From Commensalibacter nepenthis (GTDB lineage Bacteria; Pseudomonadota; Alphaproteobacteria; Acetobacterales; Acetobacteraceae), in contig NZ_JASBAN010000001.1 in NCBI RefSeq assembly GCF_029953305.1, positions 1,462,501 to 1,526,500 on the forward strand: a stretch of DNA of 64,000 nt, given 5' to 3'. Below are positions 20,108 to 47,716 of this stretch, one piece after another. Below the pieces are notes generated by a model. That model was given only the letters and a program-made list of their open reading frames with translations. It was not told the origin of the DNA and did no database searches. The position numbers and the translations under genes were made by a program. Each line of letters starts with the position of its first letter. The first letter of the stretch is position 1.

Positions 20108-20136
20108 TTTATATTAGTTAGAATAAGTAATAAAAC

Positions 20137-20184
20137 AAAAGGCTTTGATAGTTATTTAAAATATAATTATCTAAGCCTTTTTTT
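20137..20184 (+). terminator. Terminator after the OprB gene
   Basis: AAAAGGCTT-TGATA pairs with TATCT-AAGCCTTTT around an A/T-rich loop, followed by a T-run. It ends the OprB transcript before the first GH3 gene. Confidence 0.8.
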
Positions 20185-20302
20185 ATTCATAACTTTTTTT
20201 TGAAAGGGAATTTTAATTGTTTTGTTGATTTTTTTAGTTGATTATTGAACTTTGAGGGTAGAGTATTTTAATATTGTAAATTATTTTATAAAGGCTGCTA
20301 TT

Positions 20303-22555: not shown

Positions 22556-22581
22556 TATCTTACATAATTTGGTATTCTTTT

Positions 22582-22619
22582 AAATAGCCACGGTATATTT
22601 AGCCGTGGCTATTTTTTTA
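22582..22619 (+). terminator. Terminator after GH3 copy 1
   Basis: AAATAGCCACGG and CCGTGGCTATTT form a 12-bp stem with a short loop and a T-run. A diverged version of the same hairpin follows the second GH3 gene, so it seems to have been duplicated with the gene. Confidence 0.88.
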
Positions 22620-22716
22620 TAACAGCATACTGTGTACGACCTTTAATCAATATTGACTATTCGTAATAAATATAAGCTAATGTTTGTATATATTTTGACT
22701 GGAAGAGGATATTTTT

Positions 22717-30860: not shown

Positions 30861-33800
30861 ATGTCTGAAGACAAAAATAATAATCAATCAAGTGTGGAGC
30901 AAACAGCCACGGTTGTGGTTGCTGCTAATGACGCTGTTTCCTCGTCATTAAGTGATGTGCTTTTAGGGAGTTCTGCTGGTGTTATTTCCAGTGGTGGTTC
31001 ATTAAGTAGTGATGGTTCGGCTTCTTTATCTGAGTTAGCATCTGCGGGTATTGTCGGATCTGATGCGGCTTCGCTTGCGTCTGCATACAGTGCTGGTGTT
31101 ATGTCGGTATTGGATGAAACATATTATGCGGGTGCATTAGGTCGTTCTTTACAAGCTGCTACGGTGCAAAATGCTGCCGTTTTAACGACAAGACCAAATG
31201 CGCCAACCCAGGGTATCGATACATATAAGATCGCTCAAAGCCAGGCTATGTGGCTTGCTACAGCGTCTAATATGGTCAAAGCGACCTCTGCAGGTTATGC
31301 TAATCTATATTACAATGTTGGCAGTAACACACTTTATGCTGGATTAAATGCAACTGTTGGTAGTGCTGGTGGCGGTAAGGGTGCTGTTATTTATAGCCAG
31401 GGCGGTAATCTGAATATTAATGCTAATGCTGGTCTAAACATAACGAGTGCTGGTCAGATTCTGGTTGGTGGAAATTTTGGCACGGATTTTACATTTAATA
31501 CCTCTCAGACGCTGAGGTTGGATAGTGGAACTTATTTAAGTGCTACAGGATACCTTGGAGGGATTGCGGATAAGTCACAAGCTGGTACATCTCTCGTTGG
31601 GAAGGAAAATTTGCGTACGGGCGGTGTTTCAACAGCAGATAGTGTTGTAATGGATGTTGGTACTGATGTTGGTGTGGTTGGGGATGTGGGCGGCTTTCCC
31701 ACGCAAACAATAATTGGAAATAATAATGTTATAAGAATGGGTGGGAATATCGGGGTATTTCTGAATGCCTCTATGACTGTTGGAAGTGATGTTCATATGT
31801 CGGTTGCTACTGCCACTGGTAGTGGTTTCTTTATCGGCTCAGGTGGTTATTATAGTGCGGCTGATTATGGCAATTATTATGTTCATGGAGGTATGGGGGC
31901 TGCATATCTAAATGGCACGTTAAATAGTGCTGCGCGTCTAATTTTAGGAAATAACACCACTGTTAAGTTGGATAATGCAAACTGGGGTAACTTTGCTGCT
32001 CAGGCGGGTGCTTCGGTTATTGTTGGTAAGGCATTTAATTTAAGTGCATTGGAAATTTCAGTTGGTTACGGGCAAAATCCTAATACGGGGGGTATTCTTG
32101 GTTCTCAAACTGCAAGCATGGTTATTGGTAGTGATGCAACCATCAGTTTGGGTCAAGCGGGATTGTTGGATAATGGTTCAAAATTCTATCTTGGCTCGAA
32201 CGGTGCGATTGTTGTTGATGGATTGGGTGGTGTACTAAATGTTGGTAATGGAGCTACCATAACAGCCAATACTATTTCTGTTGGTAACTATACCAAGGAT
32301 TATAGTGGCTTTAATCCCCAAGTTGGGTCAAATATGCAGTATTCTTGGTATAAAACGGGTTCCAATAATAGTGTAACTATTGGTTCTAATGCTGAAATCA
32401 ACCTTTCTGGTGGTATTGCGCTTGATGGTAATAATGGTAAAGTGCAGCTGGTTGGTGGTACTACATCGAGCATTTTAAATGCTGGTTTTATCAGCGCGGG
32501 TCGTTTTTACAGAGATTATCGTGTGGCGCTTGTAAATGGTAGTTCAACTGCTCCTGTTACGAAGTATAATTTTGTATATGATAATACTTCTGGTGCGACT
32601 GTTAATATTGGTGATAATTATATTATTACCTTGACTTCTGGGACAATTAATACAGGGTTTGCTAATGAGCCAACCATAAGTAATAACGGAAACGTTATGA
32701 ACAATATTAATGGTGGTGTGTTTACTTTTGGCAATAATGTTCAATTGAACGCCAACTCAGTTGTTGTGGGTGATTATTATCTTTCTACAGTCAATAAATA
32801 CACCCATAAACCTGTTATTTTTTCTGCATTAACATTAGCAGCATCTACGACTTATGGTAGTAATGCCCAGCTAAATCTTTCTGGTGCTGTTTTGTTAAAT
32901 GGTTCAGGAAATTTAATAAATTTTGGTGATGGATTGACTTTGAATGCATCAACAATGTCATTTGGTAGTGGTATCGGAGGCGGAACACAACTCAGTAATG
33001 TTTTCTCTGCTGGATCATTCGGAAGCATTACGTTAAGTAATGGATTAAGTAATACTCTGGGTGCTGGTAGGTTCCAACTGGGTAATAATGGTTATATTCA
33101 CCTTCTTTCTGGTGATTACGTTATGAATGGTTCGGGTCAAGTTGGAACTCTTGCCAATAATAATCAATTTATCCTAGGGGATAATAGCAAGTTATTGCTT
33201 GATGCGGGCTCCATTTTAGTCAGTGGTCAAAGGCAAAATTTTGCAATGGGGAACACCGGAATAGTCTCTGCTGATAATTTTAATATATCAGGTTCCGCTC
33301 AAACATTTACCTTTGGTAGTAATGCGGTTATTGATATTAAAAATAATTTATCGTATGTCGGATCTGTTACTTCGATGAGTTTTGGGAATAACTTAACTCT
33401 TAATGCGGGTTCTATGTCCCTCGGTGCGGTATCTGCAACAGGTATCATTGATGGAGGAAACATTTTCTCTGCGGGAGCTTCTGCAAGTATTACTCTAAGT
33501 ACTGGACTTACAAACAATATGGGTTCAGGAATATTCCAACTAGGTAATAATGGTTATATTCACCTTCTTTCTGGTGATTACGTTATGAATGGTTCGGGTC
33601 AAGCTGGAACTCTTGTCAATAATCGATTTATCCTAGGGGATAATAGCAAGTTATTACTTGATGCTGGTAACTTGGTGTTAAATGGTCAAAGGCAAACATT
33701 TACGGTTGGTAGTACTGGTACAATTGTTGCCAATACATTTAGTATGGGTGGAACATCTCAAACCTTTATCGTCAGTAATAATGCTACTGCTACGTTCAAT

Positions 33801-35885
33801 AGTGGTATCGTGGTTGACGGTGCAATATTAAATACAACATTTGGTAATAATGTCGGGTTGACGGTTGGTGCTAATGGTATAATATTTAACACCTCAACAC
33901 AGTTTGCTGTTGGCACGGGTGGATCTGTCAATGTTGCGGGTGATATTGTTTTTGGTTTGAATGCAGCTAATACGACGTTTAAAGTAGGTGCAAATCAAAC
34001 AACGTTTAAAGCCAATAATATTGTGGTGAATGCCGACAGTCCATCTCTGACATTTGGTGGTGGAATTGCTTATAATGTTGCTGGTTGGAACTTGAATGGT
34101 AAGGCGGATACAATTTTATTAGGTGATGGTGCGACGGGATCCATTGGCAATATTACTGTTGGTGGTAATGCAACTGGCGCTTCCTTTAATACCGGTAAAG
34201 CAAAAAGTTTAAGTTTTGGTAATGTAACTTTGATAAATGATGCTGCACTTACTTTAAATGGTAACGTTACTGGTCAATCGTTGAACTTGGCTGGTGTAAC
34301 AAAAGTGAATGTTGTTGCCGGTGCAACTGTGGATATCGGTAGTCTGTCGTTTGATGGAACACAGCAAGTTATTATTAATGTTGCCTCTGGTGCGACATTG
34401 AATATTGATTCAGTATCAACATTCAATGTTGGTTCTAGCAATATACCTAGGATTAATATCCAGGGTGGTACAGTTATTGTTGGTGGTCAAAAATTACGCT
34501 CTTTGAGTACAGATCAATATATGGTTGATTTTGGCACTACTGCGCAAAATGGTGTTTATAGATATGAGGGCACTATTCAAGAACAGAGTGGTAAAATAAC
34601 GTTGAATAACTTTGCGTTATCAGATCAGGCGGTTTTTGATATTGGCACTCAATATTTAGATCAAAATCGTTATCAGACGAGTGTCAAGGATGGCGTTTTA
34701 TATGTTGATTATATCACGGAAGCTGGGCAACGGGTTAATTTAGCGCAATTTAGCTATACTCCAGCAAGTGGAAGTCAAGCTGTTCCTAACGTTGTTATTA
34801 GTCAAGATGATACCAGTGGAACAGGTTGGACGATCACGTTGACAAAATGCTTTGTGACTGGGACGCATATTTTGACACCAAATGGTGAGGTCACTGTAGA
34901 GAGCTTAAATGTTGGCGACCAGGTTATTACGCTTCAGAATGGAGAACAGGTCAGCAAACGGATCGTTTGGGTTGGTCATATAGATGTGAGTGTGAACCAT
35001 TACGGACATAAAGATACTTTGTATCCTGTTCGTATTAGAGCACACGCATTTGGATTAAACCAACCTTGCCGTGATTTGTTGGTGACGCCAGAACATACAA
35101 TTTACGTCGATGGTGGTTTGATACCAGCACGTATGTTGGTCAATGGACGTTCTATTATCGTAGATACCGATATGGATAACTTTACAGTTTACCATGTTGA
35201 AACTGAAGATCATTCAATTCTGTTGTCAGAGAATTTAGCAACTGAATCTTACCTTAATACTGATGATCGTCATTTATTTAATGGTGATACGGTTAATCTG
35301 CATTTGGCCTTTAATGAGAATGCAGGGCATCAAATTTGGGAAAATGATGCGGCCGCACCATTGACTGTCGCAAGACATCAAGTAGAACCTATTTGGCAGC
35401 GTTTGGATTGTCTTGCAACGCAACAGGGTTATGCCTTTGTGAATAAACAAGAGACGACGAGAGATCCAGATCTTTGTTTAATTACACAAAAAGGGAGGAA
35501 ACTTCATCCTGTTGATGTCAGAGGCAATGTTTATAGCTTCTATGTACCTGCAAATGTGAGCGTTGTTGCAATGCATTCAAAAGCAGCGTTACCATCAGAA
35601 GTGGTTGGTCCATTCCTTGATGATCGACGGATGTTGGGTGTTCTGGTTGCAAAAATCAGCGTGTTTGGTGATAAATCCTTTGATATTCTTCCTTCTGATA
35701 TGACGGGTCTTTCAGGTTGGCATCCAGCTGAATTGAACCGAACAGATCGTTGGACAAAAGGATTGGCAACATTACCTGCAGTTGTTTCTGAGATGAGTGA
35801 TAAAGTTAAGTTGATTAAAATCGAATTAACCACCACGGCAGAATATTTTGTAGATATAATTGAGTTTGCCGAACATATTGCATAA
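30861..35885 (+). CDS. Large beta-helical surface protein with C-terminal Hint domain
   Basis: This 1674-residue protein has a Ser/Ala/Gly-rich N-terminus with no typical Sec signal, about 1200 residues of repeats with the recurring pattern of a Gly-Asn turn then an alternating strand (FGNN, LGNNGYIHL, LGDNSKLLLDAG), which looks like a beta-helix, and a Hint domain from about 1330. The Hint splice motifs are present: Cys1330 in TKCFVTGTHIL, the NGEVTVESLNVGDQV strand, and the TxxH motif T1409-P-E-H1412. A tail of about 200 residues follows. Hint_2-type proteins are common in acetic acid bacteria. There is no autotransporter barrel. Substrates for AAH/TibC enzymes are also repeat proteins, and such an enzyme lies at 46247. 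Export route and cleavage are unproven. Confidence 0.78.
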   Translation: MSEDKNNNQSSVEQTATVVVAANDAVSSSLSDVLLGSSAGVISSGGSLSSDGSASLSELASAGIVGSDAASLASAYSAGVMSVLDETYYAGALGRSLQAATVQNAAVLTTRPNAPTQGIDTYKIAQSQAMWLATASNMVKATSAGYANLYYNVGSNTLYAGLNATVGSAGGGKGAVIYSQGGNLNINANAGLNITSAGQILVGGNFGTDFTFNTSQTLRLDSGTYLSATGYLGGIADKSQAGTSLVGKENLRTGGVSTADSVVMDVGTDVGVVGDVGGFPTQTIIGNNNVIRMGGNIGVFLNASMTVGSDVHMSVATATGSGFFIGSGGYYSAADYGNYYVHGGMGAAYLNGTLNSAARLILGNNTTVKLDNANWGNFAAQAGASVIVGKAFNLSALEISVGYGQNPNTGGILGSQTASMVIGSDATISLGQAGLLDNGSKFYLGSNGAIVVDGLGGVLNVGNGATITANTISVGNYTKDYSGFNPQVGSNMQYSWYKTGSNNSVTIGSNAEINLSGGIALDGNNGKVQLVGGTTSSILNAGFISAGRFYRDYRVALVNGSSTAPVTKYNFVYDNTSGATVNIGDNYIITLTSGTINTGFANEPTISNNGNVMNNINGGVFTFGNNVQLNANSVVVGDYYLSTVNKYTHKPVIFSALTLAASTTYGSNAQLNLSGAVLLNGSGNLINFGDGLTLNASTMSFGSGIGGGTQLSNVFSAGSFGSITLSNGLSNTLGAGRFQLGNNGYIHLLSGDYVMNGSGQVGTLANNNQFILGDNSKLLLDAGSILVSGQRQNFAMGNTGIVSADNFNISGSAQTFTFGSNAVIDIKNNLSYVGSVTSMSFGNNLTLNAGSMSLGAVSATGIIDGGNIFSAGASASITLSTGLTNNMGSGIFQLGNNGYIHLLSGDYVMNGSGQAGTLVNNRFILGDNSKLLLDAGNLVLNGQRQTFTVGSTGTIVANTFSMGGTSQTFIVSNNATATFNSGIVVDGAILNTTFGNNVGLTVGANGIIFNTSTQFAVGTGGSVNVAGDIVFGLNAANTTFKVGANQTTFKANNIVVNADSPSLTFGGGIAYNVAGWNLNGKADTILLGDGATGSIGNITVGGNATGASFNTGKAKSLSFGNVTLINDAALTLNGNVTGQSLNLAGVTKVNVVAGATVDIGSLSFDGTQQVIINVASGATLNIDSVSTFNVGSSNIPRINIQGGTVIVGGQKLRSLSTDQYMVDFGTTAQNGVYRYEGTIQEQSGKITLNNFALSDQAVFDIGTQYLDQNRYQTSVKDGVLYVDYITEAGQRVNLAQFSYTPASGSQAVPNVVISQDDTSGTGWTITLTKCFVTGTHILTPNGEVTVESLNVGDQVITLQNGEQVSKRIVWVGHIDVSVNHYGHKDTLYPVRIRAHAFGLNQPCRDLLVTPEHTIYVDGGLIPARMLVNGRSIIVDTDMDNFTVYHVETEDHSILLSENLATESYLNTDDRHLFNGDTVNLHLAFNENAGHQIWENDAAAPLTVARHQVEPIWQRLDCLATQQGYAFVNKQETTRDPDLCLITQKGRKLHPVDVRGNVYSFYVPANVSVVAMHSKAALPSEVVGPFLDDRRMLGVLVAKISVFGDKSFDILPSDMTGLSGWHPAELNRTDRWTKGLATLPAVVSEMSDKVKLIKIELTTTAEYFVDIIEFAEHIA
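33072..33237 (+). repeat. Internal direct repeat in the surface-protein gene, copy 1
   Basis: This 166-bp segment is nearly identical to 33534-33696; the difference includes a 3-bp length change that keeps the reading frame. It encodes the FQLGNNGYIHLLSGDYVMNG stretch through to GQRQ. Similarity at the nucleotide level, not only protein, points to a recent duplication or gene conversion. Confidence 0.92.
33534..33696 (+). repeat. Internal direct repeat in the surface-protein gene, copy 2
   Basis: This is the second copy of the repeat at 33072-33237, offset by 462 bp (154 codons). The DNA between and beyond the copies is much less similar, so the conserved block is limited to about 55 codons. 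Confidence 0.92.
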
Positions 35886-35923
35886 ATTAAACTTGATGAA
35901 AAATAATGTGATTTTATGAATGT

Positions 35924-35968
35924 AAAACTTTCCTTTTCTGTAATTTAAGAAGAGGAAAGTTTTTCTTA
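35924..35968 (+). terminator. Terminator after the Hint surface-protein gene
   Basis: AAAACTTTCCTTTTCT and AGAAGAGGAAAGTTTT form a stem of about 16 bp (one wobble) with an 8-base loop, followed by TTCTTATTTT. It should separate the surface-protein transcript from the ANL-PKS genes, leaving a promoter for the latter in the short remaining gap or by read-through. Confidence 0.82.
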
Positions 35969-35988
35969 TTTTATGGTGGAGTTTTTTT

Positions 35989-37467
35989 ATGTATGACCGT
36001 TTTATAGAACATGTTTCAAGAATATCACCAAATAAAGAGGCAATGTTATCATTTGATGGTTCGGTTACGTTTGCCAAAATGGATGCCGATATTAATCGTT
36101 TAGCAGCAGCATTGCTTGAAAAATTGACACCATTGCCCAAGGTTGTTGCGGTTTCTTATCAGCAAATGCATCCTCATTGGATGTTTTTAATGGCACTTAG
36201 CCGTATTGGTGTTGCGACAGCGTCTGTCGCTGATGATAGTTTGATTGCTGCAAAAGAAATAGCAGTTCTTAAACCTGATTTGATTATTAGTGATGCTTTC
36301 TTTGATGTGGAAACTCAAGCTAAAGTTGTAGTTCTAGATTTAGATTGGTATTCCCAAATCGTAAGTGGACCAGAGGTTCAACCTTTGCGTTTTGCTCTGG
36401 ATCGTGATCGTGTGGTACGTGTTGCGATTGCTGGGGGGACATCGGATAAAAAACGTCGTATTGATTTTACAGCATCTATGATTGAGGCAGCTGTTATTCG
36501 TTTGGCTCATCAAGAATATCTTGAATGGGCTGAAATACAAGATGCTGCACGATATCATCGTTTGTTACCGACTTTAGGATTGGGTAGTGTTCATGGGTTT
36601 TTGTCTGCTTTAAGTATATGGTATGTGTGCGGTTCTGTGATTATGGCGGATAGAGAACAGTATCCTGCAGCTATTGCTATGTTAAAACCGTCGCTTATGA
36701 TTATTTCACCATCTCAGTTACAAGATATTTTGAATCATTTGCCTGCTGATGTGCCTTCTGTTACTGGATTAAGATTGGTTGTTTCGGCGGGGTATTTCTC
36801 CTCGGCGTTACAAGAAACAGTTCGTAGCAAGTTAACACAACATATGCGTGTATTATATGTAACCAGTGAAGCTGGTCTGATTGCTGGTGCGCGTGTTGAA
36901 CAAATGACGCATGATGATATGGCAGGGTGGTTGTTGCCTTCGGTTGATTTGCAAATTGTTGATGATGAAGGTCAAATATTACCTGTGGGTGAAATTGGCA
37001 ACATCCGGATTAAAAGTGCTGAGCTTGTTGATGGTTTTTATGAAGATGAAGAGGCTACAAATCGTCAATTTAAGGATGGTTGGTTTTACCCTGGTGATTT
37101 AGGAATATTGGATGTTCGTGGGGGATTGCGTATTTTTGGTCGTGCAGACGAATTATATAATTTTGGTGGTGATAAATTTCCAGCACAAACGATTGATCGT
37201 ATCGTACAATCATTGCCTGGTGTTAAAGACGCAGCTTTATTTTCTATGCCAAATGAGCAAGGTATTCCTGAACCATGGTTGGCGATCGTTAAAGATGTTG
37301 ATTTCGATGTAGAAAAGGTTAGTGAGGCTTTGGAAAGTGAATTTCACAATTTACCGAATGTCAGAGCCATGTGGGTTGATGTGATTCCAAGAGATGTGGT
37401 TGACCGTGTATTGAGATATCAATTAAGTATGGTGGCAAGCCAGCAATATGCCAAAATGCACAAATGA
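35989..37467 (+). CDS. ANL-superfamily adenylate-forming protein with eroded motifs
   Basis: This 492-residue protein has the ANL fold (acyl-CoA/adenylate ligase): a large N-terminal domain, the DGWFYPGDLGIL hinge motif near 363-374 and the GRADELYNFGGDKF block near 384-397. Two catalytic motifs are altered. The P-loop normally reads SGTTG-x-PKG; here it is IAGGTSDKKRR near 146-156. The C-terminal lysine motif (usually TxSGKxLR) is RDVVDRVLR near 468, with Arg in the lysine position. It may be inactive, a binding partner, or an enzyme with altered chemistry. It lies 58 bp before a type I PKS, and a normal adenylating partner follows the PKS, so the degenerate copy probably has a structural or chaperone role; that is inference. 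Confidence 0.72.
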   Translation: MYDRFIEHVSRISPNKEAMLSFDGSVTFAKMDADINRLAAALLEKLTPLPKVVAVSYQQMHPHWMFLMALSRIGVATASVADDSLIAAKEIAVLKPDLIISDAFFDVETQAKVVVLDLDWYSQIVSGPEVQPLRFALDRDRVVRVAIAGGTSDKKRRIDFTASMIEAAVIRLAHQEYLEWAEIQDAARYHRLLPTLGLGSVHGFLSALSIWYVCGSVIMADREQYPAAIAMLKPSLMIISPSQLQDILNHLPADVPSVTGLRLVVSAGYFSSALQETVRSKLTQHMRVLYVTSEAGLIAGARVEQMTHDDMAGWLLPSVDLQIVDDEGQILPVGEIGNIRIKSAELVDGFYEDEEATNRQFKDGWFYPGDLGILDVRGGLRIFGRADELYNFGGDKFPAQTIDRIVQSLPGVKDAALFSMPNEQGIPEPWLAIVKDVDFDVEKVSEALESEFHNLPNVRAMWVDVIPRDVVDRVLRYQLSMVASQQYAKMHK

Positions 37468-37525
37468 AGAATCTATTGATGTTCATACAATTACATCAAA
37501 TTAAAAACTATATAGTATAAAAGTC

Positions 37526-40500
37526 GTGAAAGTTGAAAGTAGAATACCCATGAAAGTATTAGGTGATAAGCAATATTCTGGTGAAATAGCTATCATTGGT
37601 ATTGGTTGTCGATTTCCAGGTGGAATTGTTGATTTATCCAGTTTTTGGGAAGCTGTCTGTGGTAAAAAAGAAACCGTTAGTGAAATCTTGCCTTCTCGTT
37701 GGAACTGGAAAGGGGCTTACGATAAAGATAATACAATGATTGCAAAGAGCTTCTTTAAAAACGGAAGCTTTTTGACACAGCCAATTGATGAATTTGAACC
37801 ACTATTCTTCGGTATGTCTCCAAAAGAAGCTGTACAGTGTGACCCTCAACAGCGTGTGTTGCTAGAAGTTGCTTGGGAAGCAATGGAAGAGGGAGGGCTC
37901 GTTGCTTCTCATTATGCGGGTAAAAAAGTTGGTGTTTTTGTTGGTATCTTTGCGACCGATTGGCTGATTATGCAATCCAGTCATTATGCAAGTGAAGGCA
38001 ATGTGGAAACCAACTTCCTGGCGACAACAGCGTCAACGACAATGATTTCTGCCCGTCTATCTTATTTCTTTGATTTTTGTGGTCCTTCTTTGGCTTTGGA
38101 TACGGCGTGTTCTTCTTCGTTGACGGCTATTCATTTAGCATGTCAAAGCTTGAGGGATGGTGACAGTGATATGGCTATGGCTGGGGGGATCAATATTATG
38201 TTAACCCCACAATCTGGTGCATTGGTAGCTAAAGCCCGTTTCATGGCTGAAGATGGTAAAAGTAAAAGTTTCGATGCAGCAGCAGATGGTTATGGACGTG
38301 GTGAAGGATGTGGTGTTGTTATTCTTAAAAGGCTAGAAGATTCGATTGAGGATGGCGACAAGATTCATACGGTTATCAGTGGTATTGGCATTAATCAAGA
38401 TGGTCATAATGAAGGTATTACGGTTCCAAGTGCAGTAGCACAAGAAAAATTAATTCGCACCGTCGCAGAACAAGCTAAAATCAACTTAAAAGACATTGTT
38501 TATGTAGAGGCTCATGGAACGGGAACCCCTGTTGGTGATCCGCTTGAAGCACAAGCAATTTCGAACACGATTGGTAAAAGTCGCCCGAAGGAAAGTCCTG
38601 TCATTATTGGATCTGTCAAAGCCAATATTGGACATTTGGAAGCGGCAGCAGGGGTGGCTGGTTTGATTAAGGCTTGTTTATGCCTTGAACATAAAGCAGT
38701 GCCCCCTCAGGCAAATTTAACAGAACCAAATCCGAACATTGCCTTTGAAGATATGAATTTGCGATTGGTGCAAGATGAAGTTGTGCCATTAACAACCACT
38801 GCAAAAGATTTATACGCAGCGGTGAATTCATTTGGGTATGGTGGTTCTAACGCAAATGCGATTATTCGTTTGCCTCGTAAAGAAGAAATTGTACCCCGAA
38901 TAAATTCTGAAGACGCGCATTTGCCTTCTGATAGTTATATTTTGTCTTTGTCAACAAAGCAGCAACCTTCATTAAAATTAACAGCCGAGGCTTATGCTGC
39001 GTTCTTAAGAGCGGATAATAGCCCATCTATCGAAGATATTACTTATTCTGTTGGCAAGCATCGTTCTTTTTTCCAAAGGCATTTGGTGACTTTTGGCAAA
39101 ACAAAAGAAGAAATTGCCCAAAAATTAGAAGATTTCGCTCAAGACAAACCTAATCCAGATGTAATTGTTGGTCAGCAACAAATTAAAACCCAAACGCAAC
39201 CTGCTTTTGTCTTTTCAGGGATGGGGCCACAATGGTGGGGTATGGGGCAATGGTTGTTGAAAAACGGACCTGCTGAATGTCTGGATATTGCCAAAGAAAT
39301 TGATGGGTATTTCCAAGAGCTTTCCGGGTGGTCTATTCTTGCTGAGTTGCAAAAGACCGAAGAAGAATCTCGTATTCATGAGACAGCTGTTGCACAACCA
39401 GGTATTTTCACAATACAAGTATGTCTTGCTGAGACATTAAAGATTTATGGTATTCGTCCTGCTGCGATTGTTGGTCACAGTGTGGGTGAGGCTGCTGCTG
39501 CATATGTTGCGGGCGCATTGAGCTTGAAAGATGCAGCAACAGTTATTTATCATCGTAGTCGTCTGCAACAGACATTTGCTGGTCGTGGTTCAATGTTGGC
39601 TGTTGGGATGCCACCATCAACATCTGCCGAATTAATTAAGGACTATGAAGGGGATGTTGCGGTTGCTGCAATTAACAGCCCTCGTTCTTTTACGTTATCA
39701 GGTAGCCAAGAAAACCTTGCAAAGATTGCTGCTGAACTAGAAAAACGTTCTGAATTTAATCGCTTTTTGAAAGTCGAATTGGCTTATCATAATCCAATTA
39801 TGGCTGATATTCGCGATGAATTCGAAGACGCTGTTGAAAGGATTCAACCTAAAGTTCCAACTATTCCTTTATATTCAACAGTTACAGGGCATATTTGTGA
39901 CGATACGTTTTTTCATGATGCAAGCTATTGGTATCGTAATTTAAGGCAAACGGTTCTATTCGCCGAAGCGATTACGACGATGATCCATGATTCTTATTCT
40001 TTATTTTTAGAAATAGGACCTCATCCTGTTTTATCTGCTTCTATTAAAGAATGTGCTGCGACTTTAAATTCCTCTGTTGGTACTGCGTATACATTCCATC
40101 GTTCTGAACCAGAAGAGAAATCTATTGTTAAATCTTTAGCAAGCTTGTCTGCTGTGGGTTTAGAGTTGGATTGGGATAAAATTGTTTCTGGTAAGAGAGT
40201 AGATTTGCCATTCTATTGCTGGGCAAAAGAAGTTTACTTAAATGAAAGTAAACAGCTGCGTGCACGTCGTATGGCAGAGCGTGTCAATCCAGTTCTAGGG
40301 AATATCGATTGGTCAGGCTCTCGTGGATGGTTGTCTGAGCTTAATATTAATTTTATGCCATGGATTGTCGATCATCAACTTGAAGGGATGAAGATATTTC
40401 CAGGAGCAGCCTACGTCGAAGCTGCGATTGCTGCGCATGCTCAATTAGCCGCTGATGCACCAAAAGAAATGCAAGAGCCAGCAATTGTTGAAGATATCCA

Positions 40501-43500
40501 ATTTAAAAAAGCAATGTTGATTGATGGAAAATTTTATCCATACATCACATGGTCTGTAGATGAGCTGACTGGACGGCTTTTGGCTTATGGTCGCACGGAA
40601 AATGATTCCCCGAATTGGGAGTTATATTCAACGGCGTTGTTACGTCGCACCGTGCCGTGGAATGGTGATGTTATTGAGGATATTGAGGCACTAAAAGCAA
40701 AAATCACTGAAGAAGTTGATGTTTCTTTTTATTACGGTAAAATGCATGAATATGGCATGCAGTATGGTCCAGCTTTCCAAACCATTCAAAAACTTTATCG
40801 TGGTCATGGTGTTGCTTTTGCACATTTAAAAATTGCAGAATCTGAAAAAGAGACTATCCAGGATTATTATATTCATCCAACATTGCTTGATGGTGCATTT
40901 CAGTTATTTGGATTATTAGGGGCAGAAAAACAGGTTTCTGAGACGACGTTTGTGCCTGTTTCGATTGAGCGTGTGATGTATTTCGGTCGTCATGAAGGCG
41001 AGCTTTATGCCTATGGTGGCAATATCAGACGAGATGACGAATTCTTAATCGGTGATATTTACATTTATACACCAAAGGGTGAACCTGTTGCGAAAATTAC
41101 AGGCTTAACCGTTAAGGAGTTGGCGACAGAAAAACAAAAAGAGGCCAAACGTGCGCGTTGGTTATATCGTTATGAATGGAAAGATGCAGAAGTTACGCCA
41201 TTATTGGGCGAAATAGCACGCATTGCGTTTATTACTGATAATGATGTAATTGCTGACCCGTTAATTGCCGAACTTGAATCTCAAGGGCTGACTGTTTTGC
41301 AAGGAAGGCTTGGGGAAAGGTCAGGTTTAGAAGCAGAAAATATCTTTAACATTCGTTATGGGAGTGAAGAGGATTATAAAGCATTTTACTCTTTTGTAGA
41401 TATTCAGAAATGTCGTGCTTTAGTATATCTGCGTAAAGATAATATTCTTAATGATGATGCTATTGGATTATCTTTGGTACAAGAACTTTTATGTGTTGCC
41501 AAGAGTTTACCAGCGTTAGAAGATAAAGATGTTACTGATAATCTACGTTGTGTAATTATCACGAATGGTGCTGAAAAAGTTCTAGAAGATGAAAATATCG
41601 TTAATCTTGGACAATCCTCTTTACGTGGATTTATGCGTGTATTTTTACTAGAGCGTCCTGAAGTGCAACCTAAAATGGTTGATATTGATGGGGATATGAA
41701 TGCTGTTCAAATTCCTGTTTTAGCAGCAGAAATTTTATCCGATGATGTGGAAGATGATGTTGCATTAAGAAAGGATAAACGATTTATTTCACGTTTGGTT
41801 CCTTATAAACGTCAAGAAAATATCACACCAATTCCATTTACCGATGTAAAAGATAAAAATCTTGGTTTCCGTTTAGTTCCTGGTCGTGCGGGGATGTTGG
41901 ATCAAATACACTTTGATTTATTCGAACGTCAAAAGCCACCTCCGATGCATATTGAGGTAGAGGTAATGACTTCTTCCTTGAACTTTAAAGACCTTTTAAA
42001 GGTGATGGGGTTACTCCCTCGTGCAGTTGGGAAAGGTACTTTCCACCAGGATGGTTTGGGAATGGAAGCGGCCACCCACATCATCGCTGTCGGTGAAGGT
42101 GCGGAAGAAGCAGGATATTATGTTGGGGATCGTGTTGTTATTTCTACTCAAAACTGTCTAGCTTCTCACGTAACCCTTTCTGTTGAGAATTCTTACGCAA
42201 TGCAGTTGGATAAGAACTCTACAATTAGGGAAAGGCATCGCTATAATCTAAGCGACAACGAGATTGAACGGCTTCATAAGGAATTGGATTTTGAGATTCC
42301 AGATGCTGAAGCTTCAACGATGCCGACTGTATACGCCACAGCTTATCATATATTACTTGATGTTGCGAATATTCAAGAAGGTCAAACAATTCTGGTGCAT
42401 TCGGGTTCTGGCGGTCTAGGGCTAGCAGTGATTTCGATTGCAAAAATGAGAAAAGCTAGAATTTTTGCGACCGCTGGTAATGAAGAAAAACGTCAATATT
42501 TACGTGACCACGGTTGTGAACATGTTTGGAATTCTCGGAACCTTGAATTCGTTGATGGTGTAAAAGAGGTGACGAATGGTAAAGGGGTAGATATTGTTGT
42601 TAACTCTTTATCAGGTGAAGCCTTACAACATAGTTTAAGTCTGGTTGCACCTTATGGATACTTTTTCGAAGTTGGAAAAAGGGATATTGTTGAAGGCAAA
42701 TGGCTACCGATGCATGCCTTTAATGAAAATATTACTTTCCGTTCAATGGATTTGGATCGGATGTTGGCTCAACGTCCAGACGAAATTCTCCGGATGTTAT
42801 CTGCTTGTACACGTCACATCATGAATAGGGAAATCGTGATGCCGCCTTGTACTGTTATGCCAGCAGCTAAGGCAACCGATGCGTTTAGGTTATTAGCATC
42901 AGCTCAACACATTGGTAAAGTTGTGTTGGATTTTGCTGATAAAACTGATTTAATGGTTAATCCTCTTCCTAAAGAAATCCCAACAGTTCGAGATGACGCC
43001 GTGTATTTGGTGACGGGTGCTTATGGTGGAATGGGATTACAATTAATACAATGGTTGGTATCTATGGGTGCTAAACATCTTGTATTGGTTGGGCGTTCGT
43101 TAAAAATAGAAAACGAGGCTATTCAAAAAGCGTTGGATATCTTGGTAGCACATGGTATCAGCATTCATCAGATGCAGGCAGATATTGTTGATTATAACAG
43201 TATTAAATCTGTTATAGAACAAGCGAATCAATTGGATATGCCTTTAAAAGGTATCTTTCATTGCGCAGCAGTGATTGATGATGGTGTTATTACTAATCTT
43301 GATAATGAACGTTTAGCTAAGGTTATTTTGCCAAAAGCGCAAGGCGCATGGAATCTACATGAATTAACCAAAGATATGGAATTAGATCATTTTGTTCTAT
43401 TTTCTTCTGCAACGAATTTGCTTGGAAATATTGGACAGGCTGCTTATGTTTCTGCGAATTTCTTCTTGGATGCTTTGGCGAAATATCGTAAGCAAAACGG

Positions 43501-44155
43501 ATTGCCAGCTCTTGCGATTGAGTGGGGTGCCATTGATGGTGGTAGCATGTATCAAAAAGATAGTCGTGCTGCGAAAAACTTTGAAACTATTGGGGTAACT
43601 CCTATTCCGATCAAAGAAGCACTAGCAACGATCTCCTTGCTTTGGAAAGCCGATCAGCCCTGTGTTGGTGTATTAGATATTGATTGGTCTAAATGGTTTG
43701 GCGTATTTCCGATGACACGTACAGTTGGGCGCTATCAAGAGTTATTGACACTTGGGAATTCTTCCTATGAACAAACCGAGGTATTACGTCAATTAAACGC
43801 ATTACCAATGGAGGAACGTTTACCGTTTGTTGTAAAGAATTTAATTGATATTCTGACCAAAACGTTGCAAATTCCACCAGATAGTATTGATGGTAATACG
43901 CGTCTGACAGAACTTGGTATTGACTCTCTTGTTGGTGTTGAGCTGCAGATTGCGATTAGTAATACGTTGGGATGTGAAATTTCATTATTACAATTAATGA
44001 AAGAAGAAAACCTTCAAGATGTGGGGAAAGTGTTATTGAGAAAGCTGAAAATATCATTTGAAAGTAATGAATCCTTGATACTTGATTCTGATGCTGAATC
44101 CTCGGAAGGTAAGGGAACAATGATCGAAGATTCTTCTAGTAAAGAAGTGGAATAA
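37526..44155 (+). CDS. Type I polyketide synthase, fully reducing single module
   Basis: This 2209-residue megasynthase shows KS, AT, DH, ER, KR and ACP in order, so one module can take an extender unit to a fully reduced methylene. KS: Cys195 in DTACSSS, His330 in EAHGTGT, His370 in NIGHLEAA. AT: Ser652 in GHSVGEA and His755 in AYHNP. DH: His950 in DHQLEG and Asp1122 in LDGAFQ. ER: SGSGGLGL near 1626. KR: TGAYGGMG near 1830 and Tyr1974. ACP: Ser2134 in GIDSLVG. No methyltransferase or thioesterase domain is seen, so release needs another protein. The start is GTG at 37526; ATG at 37550 is an equal alternative. The AT motif does not clearly tell malonyl from methylmalonyl specificity. Neighbours are an ANL protein and a fatty-acyl-AMP ligase 9 bp downstream. 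Confidence 0.93.
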   Translation: MKVESRIPMKVLGDKQYSGEIAIIGIGCRFPGGIVDLSSFWEAVCGKKETVSEILPSRWNWKGAYDKDNTMIAKSFFKNGSFLTQPIDEFEPLFFGMSPKEAVQCDPQQRVLLEVAWEAMEEGGLVASHYAGKKVGVFVGIFATDWLIMQSSHYASEGNVETNFLATTASTTMISARLSYFFDFCGPSLALDTACSSSLTAIHLACQSLRDGDSDMAMAGGINIMLTPQSGALVAKARFMAEDGKSKSFDAAADGYGRGEGCGVVILKRLEDSIEDGDKIHTVISGIGINQDGHNEGITVPSAVAQEKLIRTVAEQAKINLKDIVYVEAHGTGTPVGDPLEAQAISNTIGKSRPKESPVIIGSVKANIGHLEAAAGVAGLIKACLCLEHKAVPPQANLTEPNPNIAFEDMNLRLVQDEVVPLTTTAKDLYAAVNSFGYGGSNANAIIRLPRKEEIVPRINSEDAHLPSDSYILSLSTKQQPSLKLTAEAYAAFLRADNSPSIEDITYSVGKHRSFFQRHLVTFGKTKEEIAQKLEDFAQDKPNPDVIVGQQQIKTQTQPAFVFSGMGPQWWGMGQWLLKNGPAECLDIAKEIDGYFQELSGWSILAELQKTEEESRIHETAVAQPGIFTIQVCLAETLKIYGIRPAAIVGHSVGEAAAAYVAGALSLKDAATVIYHRSRLQQTFAGRGSMLAVGMPPSTSAELIKDYEGDVAVAAINSPRSFTLSGSQENLAKIAAELEKRSEFNRFLKVELAYHNPIMADIRDEFEDAVERIQPKVPTIPLYSTVTGHICDDTFFHDASYWYRNLRQTVLFAEAITTMIHDSYSLFLEIGPHPVLSASIKECAATLNSSVGTAYTFHRSEPEEKSIVKSLASLSAVGLELDWDKIVSGKRVDLPFYCWAKEVYLNESKQLRARRMAERVNPVLGNIDWSGSRGWLSELNINFMPWIVDHQLEGMKIFPGAAYVEAAIAAHAQLAADAPKEMQEPAIVEDIQFKKAMLIDGKFYPYITWSVDELTGRLLAYGRTENDSPNWELYSTALLRRTVPWNGDVIEDIEALKAKITEEVDVSFYYGKMHEYGMQYGPAFQTIQKLYRGHGVAFAHLKIAESEKETIQDYYIHPTLLDGAFQLFGLLGAEKQVSETTFVPVSIERVMYFGRHEGELYAYGGNIRRDDEFLIGDIYIYTPKGEPVAKITGLTVKELATEKQKEAKRARWLYRYEWKDAEVTPLLGEIARIAFITDNDVIADPLIAELESQGLTVLQGRLGERSGLEAENIFNIRYGSEEDYKAFYSFVDIQKCRALVYLRKDNILNDDAIGLSLVQELLCVAKSLPALEDKDVTDNLRCVIITNGAEKVLEDENIVNLGQSSLRGFMRVFLLERPEVQPKMVDIDGDMNAVQIPVLAAEILSDDVEDDVALRKDKRFISRLVPYKRQENITPIPFTDVKDKNLGFRLVPGRAGMLDQIHFDLFERQKPPPMHIEVEVMTSSLNFKDLLKVMGLLPRAVGKGTFHQDGLGMEAATHIIAVGEGAEEAGYYVGDRVVISTQNCLASHVTLSVENSYAMQLDKNSTIRERHRYNLSDNEIERLHKELDFEIPDAEASTMPTVYATAYHILLDVANIQEGQTILVHSGSGGLGLAVISIAKMRKARIFATAGNEEKRQYLRDHGCEHVWNSRNLEFVDGVKEVTNGKGVDIVVNSLSGEALQHSLSLVAPYGYFFEVGKRDIVEGKWLPMHAFNENITFRSMDLDRMLAQRPDEILRMLSACTRHIMNREIVMPPCTVMPAAKATDAFRLLASAQHIGKVVLDFADKTDLMVNPLPKEIPTVRDDAVYLVTGAYGGMGLQLIQWLVSMGAKHLVLVGRSLKIENEAIQKALDILVAHGISIHQMQADIVDYNSIKSVIEQANQLDMPLKGIFHCAAVIDDGVITNLDNERLAKVILPKAQGAWNLHELTKDMELDHFVLFSSATNLLGNIGQAAYVSANFFLDALAKYRKQNGLPALAIEWGAIDGGSMYQKDSRAAKNFETIGVTPIPIKEALATISLLWKADQPCVGVLDIDWSKWFGVFPMTRTVGRYQELLTLGNSSYEQTEVLRQLNALPMEERLPFVVKNLIDILTKTLQIPPDSIDGNTRLTELGIDSLVGVELQIAISNTLGCEISLLQLMKEENLQDVGKVLLRKLKISFESNESLILDSDAESSEGKGTMIEDSSSKEVE

Positions 44156-44164
44156 ACATACAGT

Positions 44165-46210
44165 ATGGCTCTTATTATTCCTGATGTTACTGAGGAAGAT
44201 TGGGCGTGCAAAATATATGGCATTGTTGATTGGCATACCGCGACCCTGGTTGATATGTTACAACATCGTGCCAAAATTTCCCCATCTATGGTTTTATACT
44301 CCTTATTAGATGGGGATTGTAATATTATTGATCATTTAACGAGTTTTCAGTTAGATGATCGTGCTGCCACAATTGCTGCTGGGTTACATCATTTTGGTCA
44401 GGAGGGGGATCGCGTCCTCCTCCTATGTGACAATGATTTGAATTATATTTCTGCATTTTTTGGGTGTATTTATGCTGGCATGATTCCTGCGTCTGGTATT
44501 CATATTGATGTCATGCGCAGTGATGAACGTTTCGAGATGGTCGCTAATGATGTGCAGCCCAGGCTCATTATTGGACCACGTAAAATTTTGGTCGATTATA
44601 AAGCTAGCCATAAGGAATTAAATTGTAAGCCAGTATGGGTACCTTTGGAGGTTTTATTTAACGCTAAAAATAAAATCGCAATTAAAGGTAATAATCTTGA
44701 TGTTGCTTTTATTCAATATACTTCTGGGACAACCAGGAATACAAGGGGGATAGAGCTAACGCATCGTAACTTGATCTTTAATCTTCGCCATCAAGCCAAA
44801 AGTTATGAATATTTAGATGAGAAATATAGTGGTCTGACTTGGTTACCTTTGGCGCATGATATGGGATTGATTGGTTGTGTTTTGCTGGCGATAGGATGCG
44901 GGGGGGAATGTATGTTGTTGCCACCCAAATATTTTATTGAAAAACCGGCTCGTTGGCTACAAGCTTTGTCACGATATAAAGTAAGCATGTCTGGAGGTCC
45001 TACATTTGCATATAATCTATGTACAAAAGAGGTCACGGATGAGGAAGTGCAACAGCTCGATTTATCTGCTTGGGAATTAGCGTTAAACGGCGCAGATACG
45101 GCGCAAGCGGATATTATGAAGCGTTTTTGTAAGAAATTTTCTGGGGTTGGGTTTAAAGCACGTCATTTAGTTTTTGGATATGGTTTAGCAGAAGCCACTT
45201 TAACAGCCACTAGGACTCAACGACGTGTTTTGCCCAAGTTTAGAAGCTTTTCAAGAAGTGCATTAATGGCTGGTTTTGCATGGCCAAGTATTAATAAATT
45301 TGATCGAAGAGAGCTGATTTCCTGTGGAACGTCTTTAGAGGATCAAAAGGTTATGATTGTTGATCCAGAGACAAATATGCCACTTAGGAACGGTCGTGTT
45401 GGAGAAATATGGATCACGGGTCCAAGTGTTGCCAAAGGATATTTAAATAGACCAGAAGAGACCGAAGAAATTTTTCATGCAAAAATTATCGGGCAAAGTG
45501 AAACTTATTTACGTACTGGTGATTTAGGTTTCATATTAAACGACAATTTGTTCTTTTCTGGACGGATTAGTAATGTGATTACATTGAGAGGAAAAACATA
45601 CGATCCAGATGATGTCAGCGGTGTTTTAGAAGCGGCATGTTCTGATATCCGACCCAATGCAACCGCCTTTTTCCTAGCTGATTTAGAAGATCCTGTATCC
45701 ATTACTGTGATTATAGAATTGGTTAAAAAACCATTCAATTCATATGATGCGATTGCTCAGATAGCCTATGAAATTATAACCAAAACTTATGATATTTGGC
45801 CTAAAACGATTGTGTTGACACGACCCGGAGGGGTCTTAAAGACTCCAAGTGGCAAGGCACAAATTGCCAGAACGCGTAAAGCCTTGAAAGAAAACGCTTT
45901 GCCTGTTATTAAACGATTTGATTATGAGGTCCCTGATCTTCCTCCACCTTTGACATATGAGCAGGCTCTGGTTGAAGTCAAAAAATGGATTGAAGAGGCA
46001 ACAAAAGAGTGGGATGAGAATGTAAAAGAGTTAACGCGTGAAAAACTAGTGAACAGAAAAATAGATTCAGAATTGTTATTAAATTTACGACGTGATTTTG
46101 AGGCATATTTTCATATTCAGATTGATCCATCTGAATTTATGGTGGCATGTCAAAATTATAACGATTTATGTAATTTACTAGCTAATCAGATCAGCGTAAT
46201 CATATCATAG
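44165..46210 (+). CDS. Fatty-acyl-AMP ligase (FAAL)
   Basis: FAALs activate fatty acids as acyl-adenylates and hand them to a carrier protein, typically a PKS. The 681 residues include the AMP-binding loop YTSGTTRNTRG near 185 and the FAAL-like WLPLAHDMGLIG near 220, with the Gly-rich hinge (LRTGDLG near 440) and an intact C-terminal lysine motif TPSGKAQ near 567. The loop lacks the PK of CoA ligases, as in mycobacterial FAALs. The last 80 residues resemble a carrier domain, with Asp-Ser at 634-635 inside IDSELLLNLRRDFE, but Glu follows the Ser, so phosphopantetheine attachment is doubtful. The gene is 9 bp after the PKS, which makes it the probable starter loader. Confidence 0.88.
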   Translation: MALIIPDVTEEDWACKIYGIVDWHTATLVDMLQHRAKISPSMVLYSLLDGDCNIIDHLTSFQLDDRAATIAAGLHHFGQEGDRVLLLCDNDLNYISAFFGCIYAGMIPASGIHIDVMRSDERFEMVANDVQPRLIIGPRKILVDYKASHKELNCKPVWVPLEVLFNAKNKIAIKGNNLDVAFIQYTSGTTRNTRGIELTHRNLIFNLRHQAKSYEYLDEKYSGLTWLPLAHDMGLIGCVLLAIGCGGECMLLPPKYFIEKPARWLQALSRYKVSMSGGPTFAYNLCTKEVTDEEVQQLDLSAWELALNGADTAQADIMKRFCKKFSGVGFKARHLVFGYGLAEATLTATRTQRRVLPKFRSFSRSALMAGFAWPSINKFDRRELISCGTSLEDQKVMIVDPETNMPLRNGRVGEIWITGPSVAKGYLNRPEETEEIFHAKIIGQSETYLRTGDLGFILNDNLFFSGRISNVITLRGKTYDPDDVSGVLEAACSDIRPNATAFFLADLEDPVSITVIIELVKKPFNSYDAIAQIAYEIITKTYDIWPKTIVLTRPGGVLKTPSGKAQIARTRKALKENALPVIKRFDYEVPDLPPPLTYEQALVEVKKWIEEATKEWDENVKELTREKLVNRKIDSELLLNLRRDFEAYFHIQIDPSEFMVACQNYNDLCNLLANQISVIIS

Positions 46211-46246
46211 CTTTACATAATCGTAAAAATTAAAAGGAAATAGAGA

Positions 46247-47716
46247 ATGAGTGAAGATCCTAAAGTTAAAGTTGAGGGTTTTGAACGTATTAAATTAAAA
46301 ACACGTGAAGAACAGGACGCAAGCAATTCAAATCAACAATCTAATTTAGAACAGAAAAATGAAAGTGCAATAAATCAACCAATCATTGATGAGTTGGCAA
46401 AAAAATTCTCTCCAGCAATAGGTGGGGATAATAGTCCTTCAAACCAACAAAATGCAGATAATGCTTCGAATGGGGCTCAACAGTCATCTCAATCTGAAAA
46501 CAGCTTAATTCAGCCGCCAGCAATTCCAACTCAAGATGCGGGTCAAGGAATTGCTTTTGACTTTAATTTTGCGATGCGTGTTTCTGTACCAAAACCAGCA
46601 GAAGGTGAAGGATGGCGTATTCAACTATATGATCAAGATGCAGAGGTTGCTTTACTGGATCAACCTTGTTTTGATACAGGACACGCCGCATCAGCGAAGC
46701 ATCATTATTTAAATGGAAAAATCACGGTTTACAAAATTAAAAAGGATGGGCAGCAAGAAGAAGTATTTTCTCATCAATATAATGCAGTAGGTAAGGATGT
46801 GTTGATTGTATTCCCCGTAGGATCTTTAGGGGATTCTTTGGGATGGATGCCTTATGCTGAGAAGTTTAGAGAAAAACATTGTTGTAATTTGACGCTTGCG
46901 ATTGCTCAGCCATTAATTGAATTGTTTGAGAAGTCTTATCCAGAAATTAGGTTTGTGAATGCGTTGGAATACGCCAAGAAAGAACCAAAAGATTCTTATT
47001 ACGCTTCTTATTACATAGGATTATTCTTTCAAGACGATGATAATCATTGGCAACCTGAGGATTTCAGACAAGTAGGGTTGCATCGTACTGCTGGCTATAT
47101 TTTAGGCGTTGATCCTACAGAAGAACCCCCTAAGTTAACATATAGTGATGATACAAGACCGATAGAGGAGCCGTATGTTGTTATTGCAACGCAAGCTTCT
47201 ACACAATGTAAGTATTGGAACAATCCCTTTGGATGGCATCAAGTGATTAAGTTCTTAAAATCAGTTGGATATCGTGTCATTTGTATCGATAAAGAAGTTG
47301 CTTTTGGTCGTGATTTGGTTTGGAACCATATTCCAAATGGTGCAGAAGATCAAACAGGAAATCGTTCTTTAACGGAAAGAGCACGTTGGTTAAAACATGC
47401 TGAATTCTTTGTTGGTTTATCTTCTGGTCTGGCATGGTTGGCATGGGGCGCGGGTATACCTGTTGTCATTATTTCTGGATTTACGCATCCATCAACTGAA
47501 TTTGACACACCTTATCGTGTCTTTAGCACGCATGTTTGTAACGGTTGTTGGAATGATGTTCGGTATCAATTTGATCATAGTAATTTTCTATATTGTCCCA
47601 AACATGAAAAAACACCGCGTCAGTTTGAATGCACAAAAGGGATTTCACATCAACATGTGATTAAAACAATTTTGCAAATTCCAGGATGCCGATCAGAAGT
47701 AATTAATAACGCCTAA
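46247..47716 (+). CDS. Strand-loop-strand O-heptosyltransferase, TibC/AAH-like
   Basis: TibC and AAH transfer heptose to Ser residues in the repeats of autotransporters such as TibA and AIDA-I. This 489-residue protein matches the family: GSLGDSLGWMPYAEKFR near 191-207, the NPFGWHQVIKFLKSVGYRVICID strand-helix block near 325-347, the GLSSGLAWLAWGAGIPVVIISG block near 386-407, and a four-Cys metal motif (Cys431, Cys434, Cys450, Cys462), which in TibC binds iron. The first 100 residues are low-complexity, rich in Asn, Gln, Ser and Glu, and open with MSED, as the Hint protein does. The likely substrate is the Hint surface protein at 30861, or another repeat protein. It follows the FAAL by 36 bp and ends at a terminator. 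Confidence 0.87.
   Translation: MSEDPKVKVEGFERIKLKTREEQDASNSNQQSNLEQKNESAINQPIIDELAKKFSPAIGGDNSPSNQQNADNASNGAQQSSQSENSLIQPPAIPTQDAGQGIAFDFNFAMRVSVPKPAEGEGWRIQLYDQDAEVALLDQPCFDTGHAASAKHHYLNGKITVYKIKKDGQQEEVFSHQYNAVGKDVLIVFPVGSLGDSLGWMPYAEKFREKHCCNLTLAIAQPLIELFEKSYPEIRFVNALEYAKKEPKDSYYASYYIGLFFQDDDNHWQPEDFRQVGLHRTAGYILGVDPTEEPPKLTYSDDTRPIEEPYVVIATQASTQCKYWNNPFGWHQVIKFLKSVGYRVICIDKEVAFGRDLVWNHIPNGAEDQTGNRSLTERARWLKHAEFFVGLSSGLAWLAWGAGIPVVIISGFTHPSTEFDTPYRVFSTHVCNGCWNDVRYQFDHSNFLYCPKHEKTPRQFECTKGISHQHVIKTILQIPGCRSEVINNA

Follow-up and report, generated by a model that had tools for sequence, protein, structure and literature searches.

The closest described relatives of the locus treated here are the beta-group type-1 polyketide synthases (PKSs) of Acetobacteraceae, which are published but uncharacterised (PMC8776678). 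The sections of that report drawn on here give the domain order ketosynthase (KS), acyltransferase (AT), dehydratase (DH), enoylreductase (ER), ketoreductase (KR) and phosphopantetheine-binding (PP) domain, no thioesterase, flanking acyl ligases and an O-heptosyltransferase, with Hint proteins reported for Asaia; the same sections make no mention of Commensalibacter, of a lysine loss in the ligases, of heptosylation repeats in the Hint proteins or of a link to adhesin biogenesis. A second point of comparison is mycocerosic acid synthase (MAS), a fully reducing, iterative enzyme of six domains whose product, according to the cited part of PMC12370991, is transferred by PapA5. We have analysed a window of 64,000 nucleotides from Commensalibacter nepenthis (NZ_JASBAN010000001.1, positions 1,462,501 to 1,526,500; coordinates below count from the first letter of this window), in which a PKS of the beta-group type lies within a cluster of five genes (30861-47716), all on the + strand and separated, in order, by gaps of 103, 58, 9 and 36 bp:

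30861..35885, + strand: Hint-domain adhesin-like protein, 1674 aa (Pfam Hint_2, 127.9 bits)
35989..37467, + strand: LIG1, an ANL-fold acyl-ligase-like protein (Pfam AMP-binding; motif counts in 39 relatives)
37526..44155, + strand: single-module fully reducing type I PKS, 2209 aa (Pfam domains, invariant residues)
44165..46210, + strand: fatty acyl-AMP ligase (FAAL), 681 aa (A10 motif TPSGK intact)
46247..47716, + strand: TibC/Aah-type autotransporter strand-loop-strand O-heptosyltransferase, 489 aa (TIGR04414)

An earlier reading made from the letters alone (the sequence-only reading) had singled out 37526-46210 as a PKS paired with a FAAL. Both genes were correctly recognised, and the interval proved too narrow, since three further genes travel with them. 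The locus is real, conserved and intact; the PKS shares 93% identity with its counterpart in Commensalibacter communis LMG 31819, and the host genome is a Commensalibacter genome of 2.52 Mb. A cell-surface role is indicated by the coupling of the heptosyltransferase gene to the PKS in 38 of 39 related loci and of Hint genes in seven of nine genera. The explanation we tentatively prefer, with confidence falling somewhat short of even, is that the PKS serves the biogenesis of a surface adhesin, with LIG1 as the enzyme that hands over the acyl chain, and that it makes no soluble antifungal.

A search of 397 genomes of the family with the PKS gave matches (E up to 1e-100) in 172. An order-wide search returned 40 matches in 299 genomes, all in the same family, and is uninformative about spread beyond it because the listed genomes without a match are of that family too. 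Gene content was compared at 39 beta-group loci from nine genera: LIG1 is present in all 39, the FAAL in 38 (the miss, in G342, lies at a contig end), the heptosyltransferase in 38, often as two genes, and Hint genes in 25, one of which (G299) is incomplete because its contig ends there. These counts support a physical linkage of Hint genes with the PKS; among the loci without Hint, the contig of G246 starts just before LIG1. Matches of the same strength also occur outside this synteny set, in G399, G402, G403, G404, G405, G409, G414 and G443, and in G116, which belongs to the genus of G029. None of eight control PKS loci carries LIG1, FAAL, heptosyltransferase or Hint above the thresholds within the stretch read, which in two of them is shorter than in the others (26 kb in G141c, 20 kb in G292c); G216c was excluded from the controls, its stretch containing no PKS. 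Control G292c has two ANL open reading frames (ORFs) scoring about 105 bits to LIG1, far below the threshold, which we take for ordinary ligases. The gene set comes in several orders: in genera g85 and g9 the half comprising FAAL and heptosyltransferase is inverted and sits upstream of Hint. The most telling arrangement seen is that of G029 (L159, 997-13064), where a single strand carries LIG1, PKS, FAAL and two heptosyltransferases with three Hint genes interleaved among them. The set has thus been reshuffled yet kept together.

In the KS tree, which predates the last six loci and excludes them, the 33 beta-group KSs form a clade of their own (support 100/97), the nearest KS outside it being one from Nocardia farcinica on a long branch (100/98). 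The eight control PKSs form another clade (100/99), sister to two Burkholderiaceae PKSs (100/99), and five cyanobacterial plasmid KSs also fall outside the beta clade. The placement in a known soluble-product family that would have spoken against the sequence-only reading was not seen in this tree, from which an HglE reference is absent. We equate the beta clade with the published beta group, described by Guzman and Vilcinskas, and the controls with the other groups, an assignment resting on shared gene content and not on accessions. The window locus shows the features of the group, namely the separate KS clade and the flanking acyl ligases plus O-heptosyltransferase with no thioesterase. G258 was dropped as a member: its KS groups with one from Planktothrix, and its locus has, above threshold, the FAAL but none of LIG1, Hint and heptosyltransferase.

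The A10 lysine of LIG1 is present in none of the 39 copies, the position being occupied by His (13), Arg (12), Gln (7) or other residues, with the neighbouring Pro kept in 39/39 and the neighbouring Arg in 37/39. In A3 the Gly-Thr pair is kept in 38/39, while the four residues read after it are variable and form no normal P-loop. LIG1 thus lacks both hallmarks of an acyl-CoA/AMP ligase. The A5 Glu, the A7 Asp and the A8 Gly-Arg-x-Asp are each found in 39/39, and the copies are open frames of 482-561 aa, with one (G286) whose C-terminal end appears, by eye, to be out of frame. Because the lysine is missing throughout while the residues of the AMP site are retained, LIG1 is probably not a ligase, and the lysine loss is a specific change rather than general decay. 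In other ANL enzymes, mutants of the A10-type lysine lose adenylation and largely retain the second half-reaction, according to the cited part of PMC11255334. LIG1 is therewith the best candidate within the cluster for the hand-over of the acyl chain, as a putative acyl-AMP/thioester acyltransferase.

The heptosyltransferase scores 571.1 bits against TIGR04414, whose cut-off is 200; as a baseline, this cut-off is exceeded in 117 of the 397 family genomes. The strand-loop-strand repeats named as O-heptosylation targets (TIGR04415) are over the cut-off in six of 14 PKS-linked Hint proteins scanned (the window copy and 13 relatives), the six coming from five genera, and the linked Hint proteins show weak AIDA-I/Ag43 similarity. 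In these respects the locus resembles the TibC/Aah glycosyltransferases with their AIDA-I/Ag43 adhesins; it differs in that the adhesin ends in Hint and an extension rather than in an autotransporter barrel, and in the added PKS, FAAL and LIG1 genes. TibC-type genes without a PKS adjoin Hint genes in six of 15 chosen stretches (two of the six with weak Hint matches; in one of the 15 the TibC gene was not recovered by gene calling), which makes the pair of Hint and heptosyltransferase look like a module that has gained the PKS genes. A second Hint and TibC pair is found in Commensalibacter G122 (L143, 8817-12344), with no PKS gene within the 18 kb stretch, and one TibC copy, in G136 (L095, 9502-10661), is apparently split into ORFs of 220 and 166 aa.

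The Hint protein of the window consists of a repetitive N-terminal region, the Hint_2 domain (aa 1330-1467) and a C-terminal extension (aa 1468-1674):

34848..35261, + strand: Hint_2 domain, Cys1330 and TPEH box intact, no C-terminal His-Asn (Pfam, alignment)

An alignment of 29 Hint regions from PKS stretches, made before the last six loci were added and without them, has the first Cys in 29/29, the T-x-E-H box in 29/29 and the C-terminal His-Asn in none. A Hint domain of this make-up is expected to form the N-terminal thioester without splicing. The Pfam Hint model (PF01079) gave no match in the window copy and, among eight relatives scanned, matched only one, below its cut-off. By eye, no signal peptide is evident in 19 linked Hint proteins, whose starts were chosen mechanically, and an AlphaFold model of Hint plus the C-terminus is poor (pLDDT 44.7) and uninformative. 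The same Hint domain and extension recur in five other proteins of the genome, none of them PKS-linked (33-39% identity). With Hint_2 occurring in 301 of the 397 family genomes, co-occurrence of Hint and PKS at the level of genomes is uninformative. The thioester of such a domain would activate the adhesin's own C-terminus and not the acyl chain on the PKS. The suggestion of the sequence-only reading that this thioester releases the PKS chain is accordingly rejected in that form, the thioester being on the wrong side and the same module occurring without a PKS. Three of the five unlinked Hint genes have, at distances of no more than about 6 kb, ORFs of 249 aa with near-identical first 35 residues (L127, 828-1577; L128, 10968-11717 and 15935-16684; L131, 14257-15006), which are transposase-like by their repetition only.

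The PKS itself reads in the Pfam order KS-AT-DH-ER-KR-acyl carrier protein (ACP) from a GTG at 37526; position 37550 (Met9) is an alternative possible start because the ORFs in L006 and L007 begin at the matching residue. A Pfam scan found no thioesterase domain in the ORF, which confirms the single-module architecture without thioesterase proposed earlier. Its domains are:

37583..38719, + strand: KS, aa 20-398, Cys195/His330/His370 (Pfam, residue alignment)
39206..40060, + strand: AT, aa 561-845, Ser652, substrate motif LAYH (Pfam, residue alignment)
40322..41137, + strand: DH, aa 933-1204, His950/Asp1122 (Pfam, residue alignment)
41912..42928, + strand: ER region, about aa 1463-1801 (Pfam and NCBIfam)
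42998..43537, + strand: KR, aa 1825-2004, Ser1961/Tyr1974/Asn1978 (Pfam, residue alignment)
43841..44026, + strand: ACP, aa 2106-2167, Ser2134 in GIDSL (Pfam, residue alignment)

All residues named for the KS, AT, DH, KR and ACP are invariant in 36/36 aligned beta-group PKSs (three of the 39, being fragmented, were excluded), and the sole ER position compared, the glycine of the nucleotide-binding loop, is kept in 36/36; the active sites noted by the sequence-only reading are thus borne out, for the ER through this one glycine. The AT substrate motif [LVI][PA][YF]H is found in 35 of the 36, the remaining one having a gap there, and is closer to the malonyl pattern HAFH than to YASH. The simplest product would be a fully reduced, straight acyl chain. 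None of the best 25 of 84 NCBIfam families matched by the PKS is over its own cut-off: the top match, Pks2, reaches 1213.2 bits of the required 2400, and the PfaA model of polyunsaturated fatty acid synthases 344.9 of 1010.1. PfaA has tandem ACPs; the PKS has one PP-binding stretch. The KS scores higher against CurL (372.5 bits) than against MAS (314.6). A close kinship of the KS to PDB entry 7zma (562 bits) was rejected, the score being the sum over two KS domains (265 + 294 bits).

PKSs of the MAS/Pks2 type have FAAL (FadD) partners. The six-domain fully reducing module is a further likeness to them (as MAS is described in the cited part of PMC12370991), whereas the score below the Pks2 cut-off and a genome without a match to PF00668 or to methylmalonyl-CoA mutase set the present system apart. 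In profile searches of the whole genome we found no match to the thioesterase family PF00975 (hotdog thioesterases and other hydrolases were not searched), to PF00668 (condensation/PapA-type) or to PF01642 (methylmalonyl-CoA mutase; propionyl-CoA carboxylase was not searched), so that neither the common PKS thioesterase, nor PapA-type transfer, nor the mutase route to methylmalonyl-CoA is seen. Within these limits the genome did not yield the thioesterase partner elsewhere that would have overturned the sequence-only reading, and its picture of a PKS that is loaded by the FAAL, may iterate and has no evident release enzyme agrees with a single module lacking a thioesterase, iteration being suggested by the architecture. 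The profile for thioester reductases (PF07993) is uninformative here, with a match in 14/14 controls. Only one phosphopantetheinyl transferase match, of the ACPS family, was found in the genome (L171), so the PKS ACP may share this enzyme with fatty acid synthesis. One MBOAT gene is located some 214 kb away from the PKS.

The FAAL begins 9 bp past the PKS stop, as had been read from the sequence. Its A10 lysine (TPSGK) is present in 32/32 readable beta-group rows. Of 15 PDB sequences matching it at 1e-40, seven carry names of this class (FadD23, FadD28, FadD32, fatty acyl-adenylate ligase), and the remaining eight presumably belong to it as well; the alignment to the best FAAL structure is nearly gapless over the region where the FAAL-specific insertion would lie. 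None of the best 25 of 79 NCBIfam families matched by the FAAL is over its own cut-off. The protein ends in an additional segment:

45935..46207, + strand: FAAL C-terminal tail, aa 591-681, predicted ACP-like fold (structure prediction, Foldseek, alignment)

The tail is confidently predicted as a helical bundle (mean pLDDT 88.0), and most of the 50 Foldseek rows listed are titled carrier proteins or carrier-containing complexes, the top ones being ACPs with TMq about 0.5-0.6. With a best E-value of 0.15, and none of the listed rows at 0.001, the likeness is one of fold type only. Residue 635 is Ser in five, Tyr in two, Ala in one and Pro in one of nine Commensalibacter proteins. All 23 complete beta-group FAALs aligned from other genera lack the tail, which so far as seen is confined to Commensalibacter. 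Of the carrier-like tail with Asp634-Ser635 in the sequence-only reading, the position and the predicted ACP-like fold therefore stand; a working phosphopantetheine carrier is rejected, the serine not being conserved. We read the tail as a former carrier domain, now devoid of its prosthetic-group site, that perhaps serves docking.

Taken together, these parts suggest a route in which the FAAL would activate a cellular fatty acid as acyl-AMP and load it onto the PKS, which would iterate in the manner of MAS, adding malonyl-derived units, each fully reduced. The long saturated chain would stay on the ACP until, with no thioesterase involved, it was passed to the heptosylated Hint adhesin or the adhesin's membrane anchor; LIG1, which retains its AMP-ribose-binding residues and has lost the adenylation lysine, is the candidate for the hand-over. 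The stronger version, that the heptosylated adhesin is itself covalently acylated by the FAAL-primed PKS chain, through an adenylation-dead ANL acyltransferase or Hedgehog-like capture at the adhesin's C-terminal thioester, we regard as unlikely. Several observations weigh against an adhesin-linked role. One cluster (G286b) has no heptosyltransferase, and Hint genes are missing from the stretch in 13 loci, 11 of g33 and two of g101, the Hint genes of those genomes lying elsewhere. The window's own Hint protein gave no strand-loop-strand match, eight of the 14 linked Hint proteins are below the TIGR04415 cut-off, and the repeats are not special to linked copies, since one of two unlinked Hint proteins is above it. 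Hint proteins are so common without the PKS that it must be dispensable for them, the activity of LIG1 is a guess from its residues, and linkage is not chemistry.

The same g33 loci speak for a soluble secreted polyketide, for which Hint and heptosyltransferase would be passengers or would act on the product: in this genus, probably Bombella, all 11 loci have PKS, LIG1, FAAL and two heptosyltransferases, without Hint in the stretch, and the cited part of PMC8262860 lists a conserved type-1 PKS among three clusters that might account for the antifungal activity of Bombella apis spent medium, which withstands heat and proteases. Yet no thioesterase was found in the PKS, nor PF00975 in the genome; a protein-glycosylation gene accompanies 38/39 loci, and the product expected of one fully reducing module that uses malonyl units is a simple saturated acyl chain. 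According to the sections of PMC9147383 drawn on here, moreover, every Bombella genome has the cluster, as do other acetic acid bacteria, it is not tied to bee symbiosis, and the antifungal effect could stem from primary metabolism. We think a soluble product improbable, about as much so as covalent acylation of the adhesin. Slightly better placed, though still on the unlikely side, is an envelope lipid as the destination of the PKS product: a very-long-chain acyl group would become part of lipid A, a phospholipid or a free glycolipid, and the heptosyltransferase would glycosylate that lipid or an unrelated adhesin. The PKS genes of L151 (Paraburkholderia dioscoreae pII) and L155 (Caballeronia insecticola p2) are flanked by LTA-synthase, deacetylase and aminotransferase genes, those of L151 also by capsule genes, which suggests a related surface-lipid pathway; since their KSs are the sisters of the controls, PKSs beside surface-lipid genes do exist nearby in sequence space. 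TIGR04414, however, is named for protein O-heptosyltransferases, target-type repeats are found in six of the 14 linked Hint proteins, and, in the cited part of PMC8776678, the beta group lacks the aminotransferase gene that the other groups have. Least probable of all appears a bacterial counterpart of Hedgehog, in which a nucleophile on the PKS product or on a glycolipid would attack the Hint thioester and leave the lipid on the new C-terminus of the adhesin. The invariant Cys and T-x-E-H box, the missing His-Asn and the C-terminal extension are as in Hog domains (PMC2362128, as far as cited here), with PF01079 unmatched in the window copy; such residues would fit bacterial intein-like domains equally well. 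A nucleophile is needed, which an ACP-bound acyl chain does not obviously offer, and the extension is the same in the five Hint proteins without a PKS.

If LIG1 is active as we tentatively propose, in a PKS cluster serving adhesin biogenesis, it would be an ANL-fold acyltransferase unable to adenylate, and a possible answer to the question of chain release in synthases that lack a thioesterase. This class of PKS is spread through acetic acid bacteria, honeybee symbionts included, and a cluster type to which a secreted antifungal has tentatively been attributed may instead contribute to the making of the cell surface. The missing thioesterase, the ligases, the Hint proteins and the heptosyltransferase are already known, at least from the parts of PMC8776678 cited here. 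In the open-licence PMC literature searched we found neither a proposal linking the PKS cluster to a Hint adhesin or its heptosylation, nor a Hint domain and a heptosyltransferase treated together; what is new, as far as that search goes, is the lysine loss of LIG1, the repeats in linked Hint proteins, the linkage counts and the rejection of the carrier tail.

The ten genes scanned upstream of the cluster encode a porin, two family 3 glycosidases, enzymes of basic metabolism and small proteins without known function; the OprB-type porin gene and, following it, the two glycosidase genes in tandem occupy positions 18533-24966 of the window. On its 3' side the cluster is followed by an ORF on the opposite strand.

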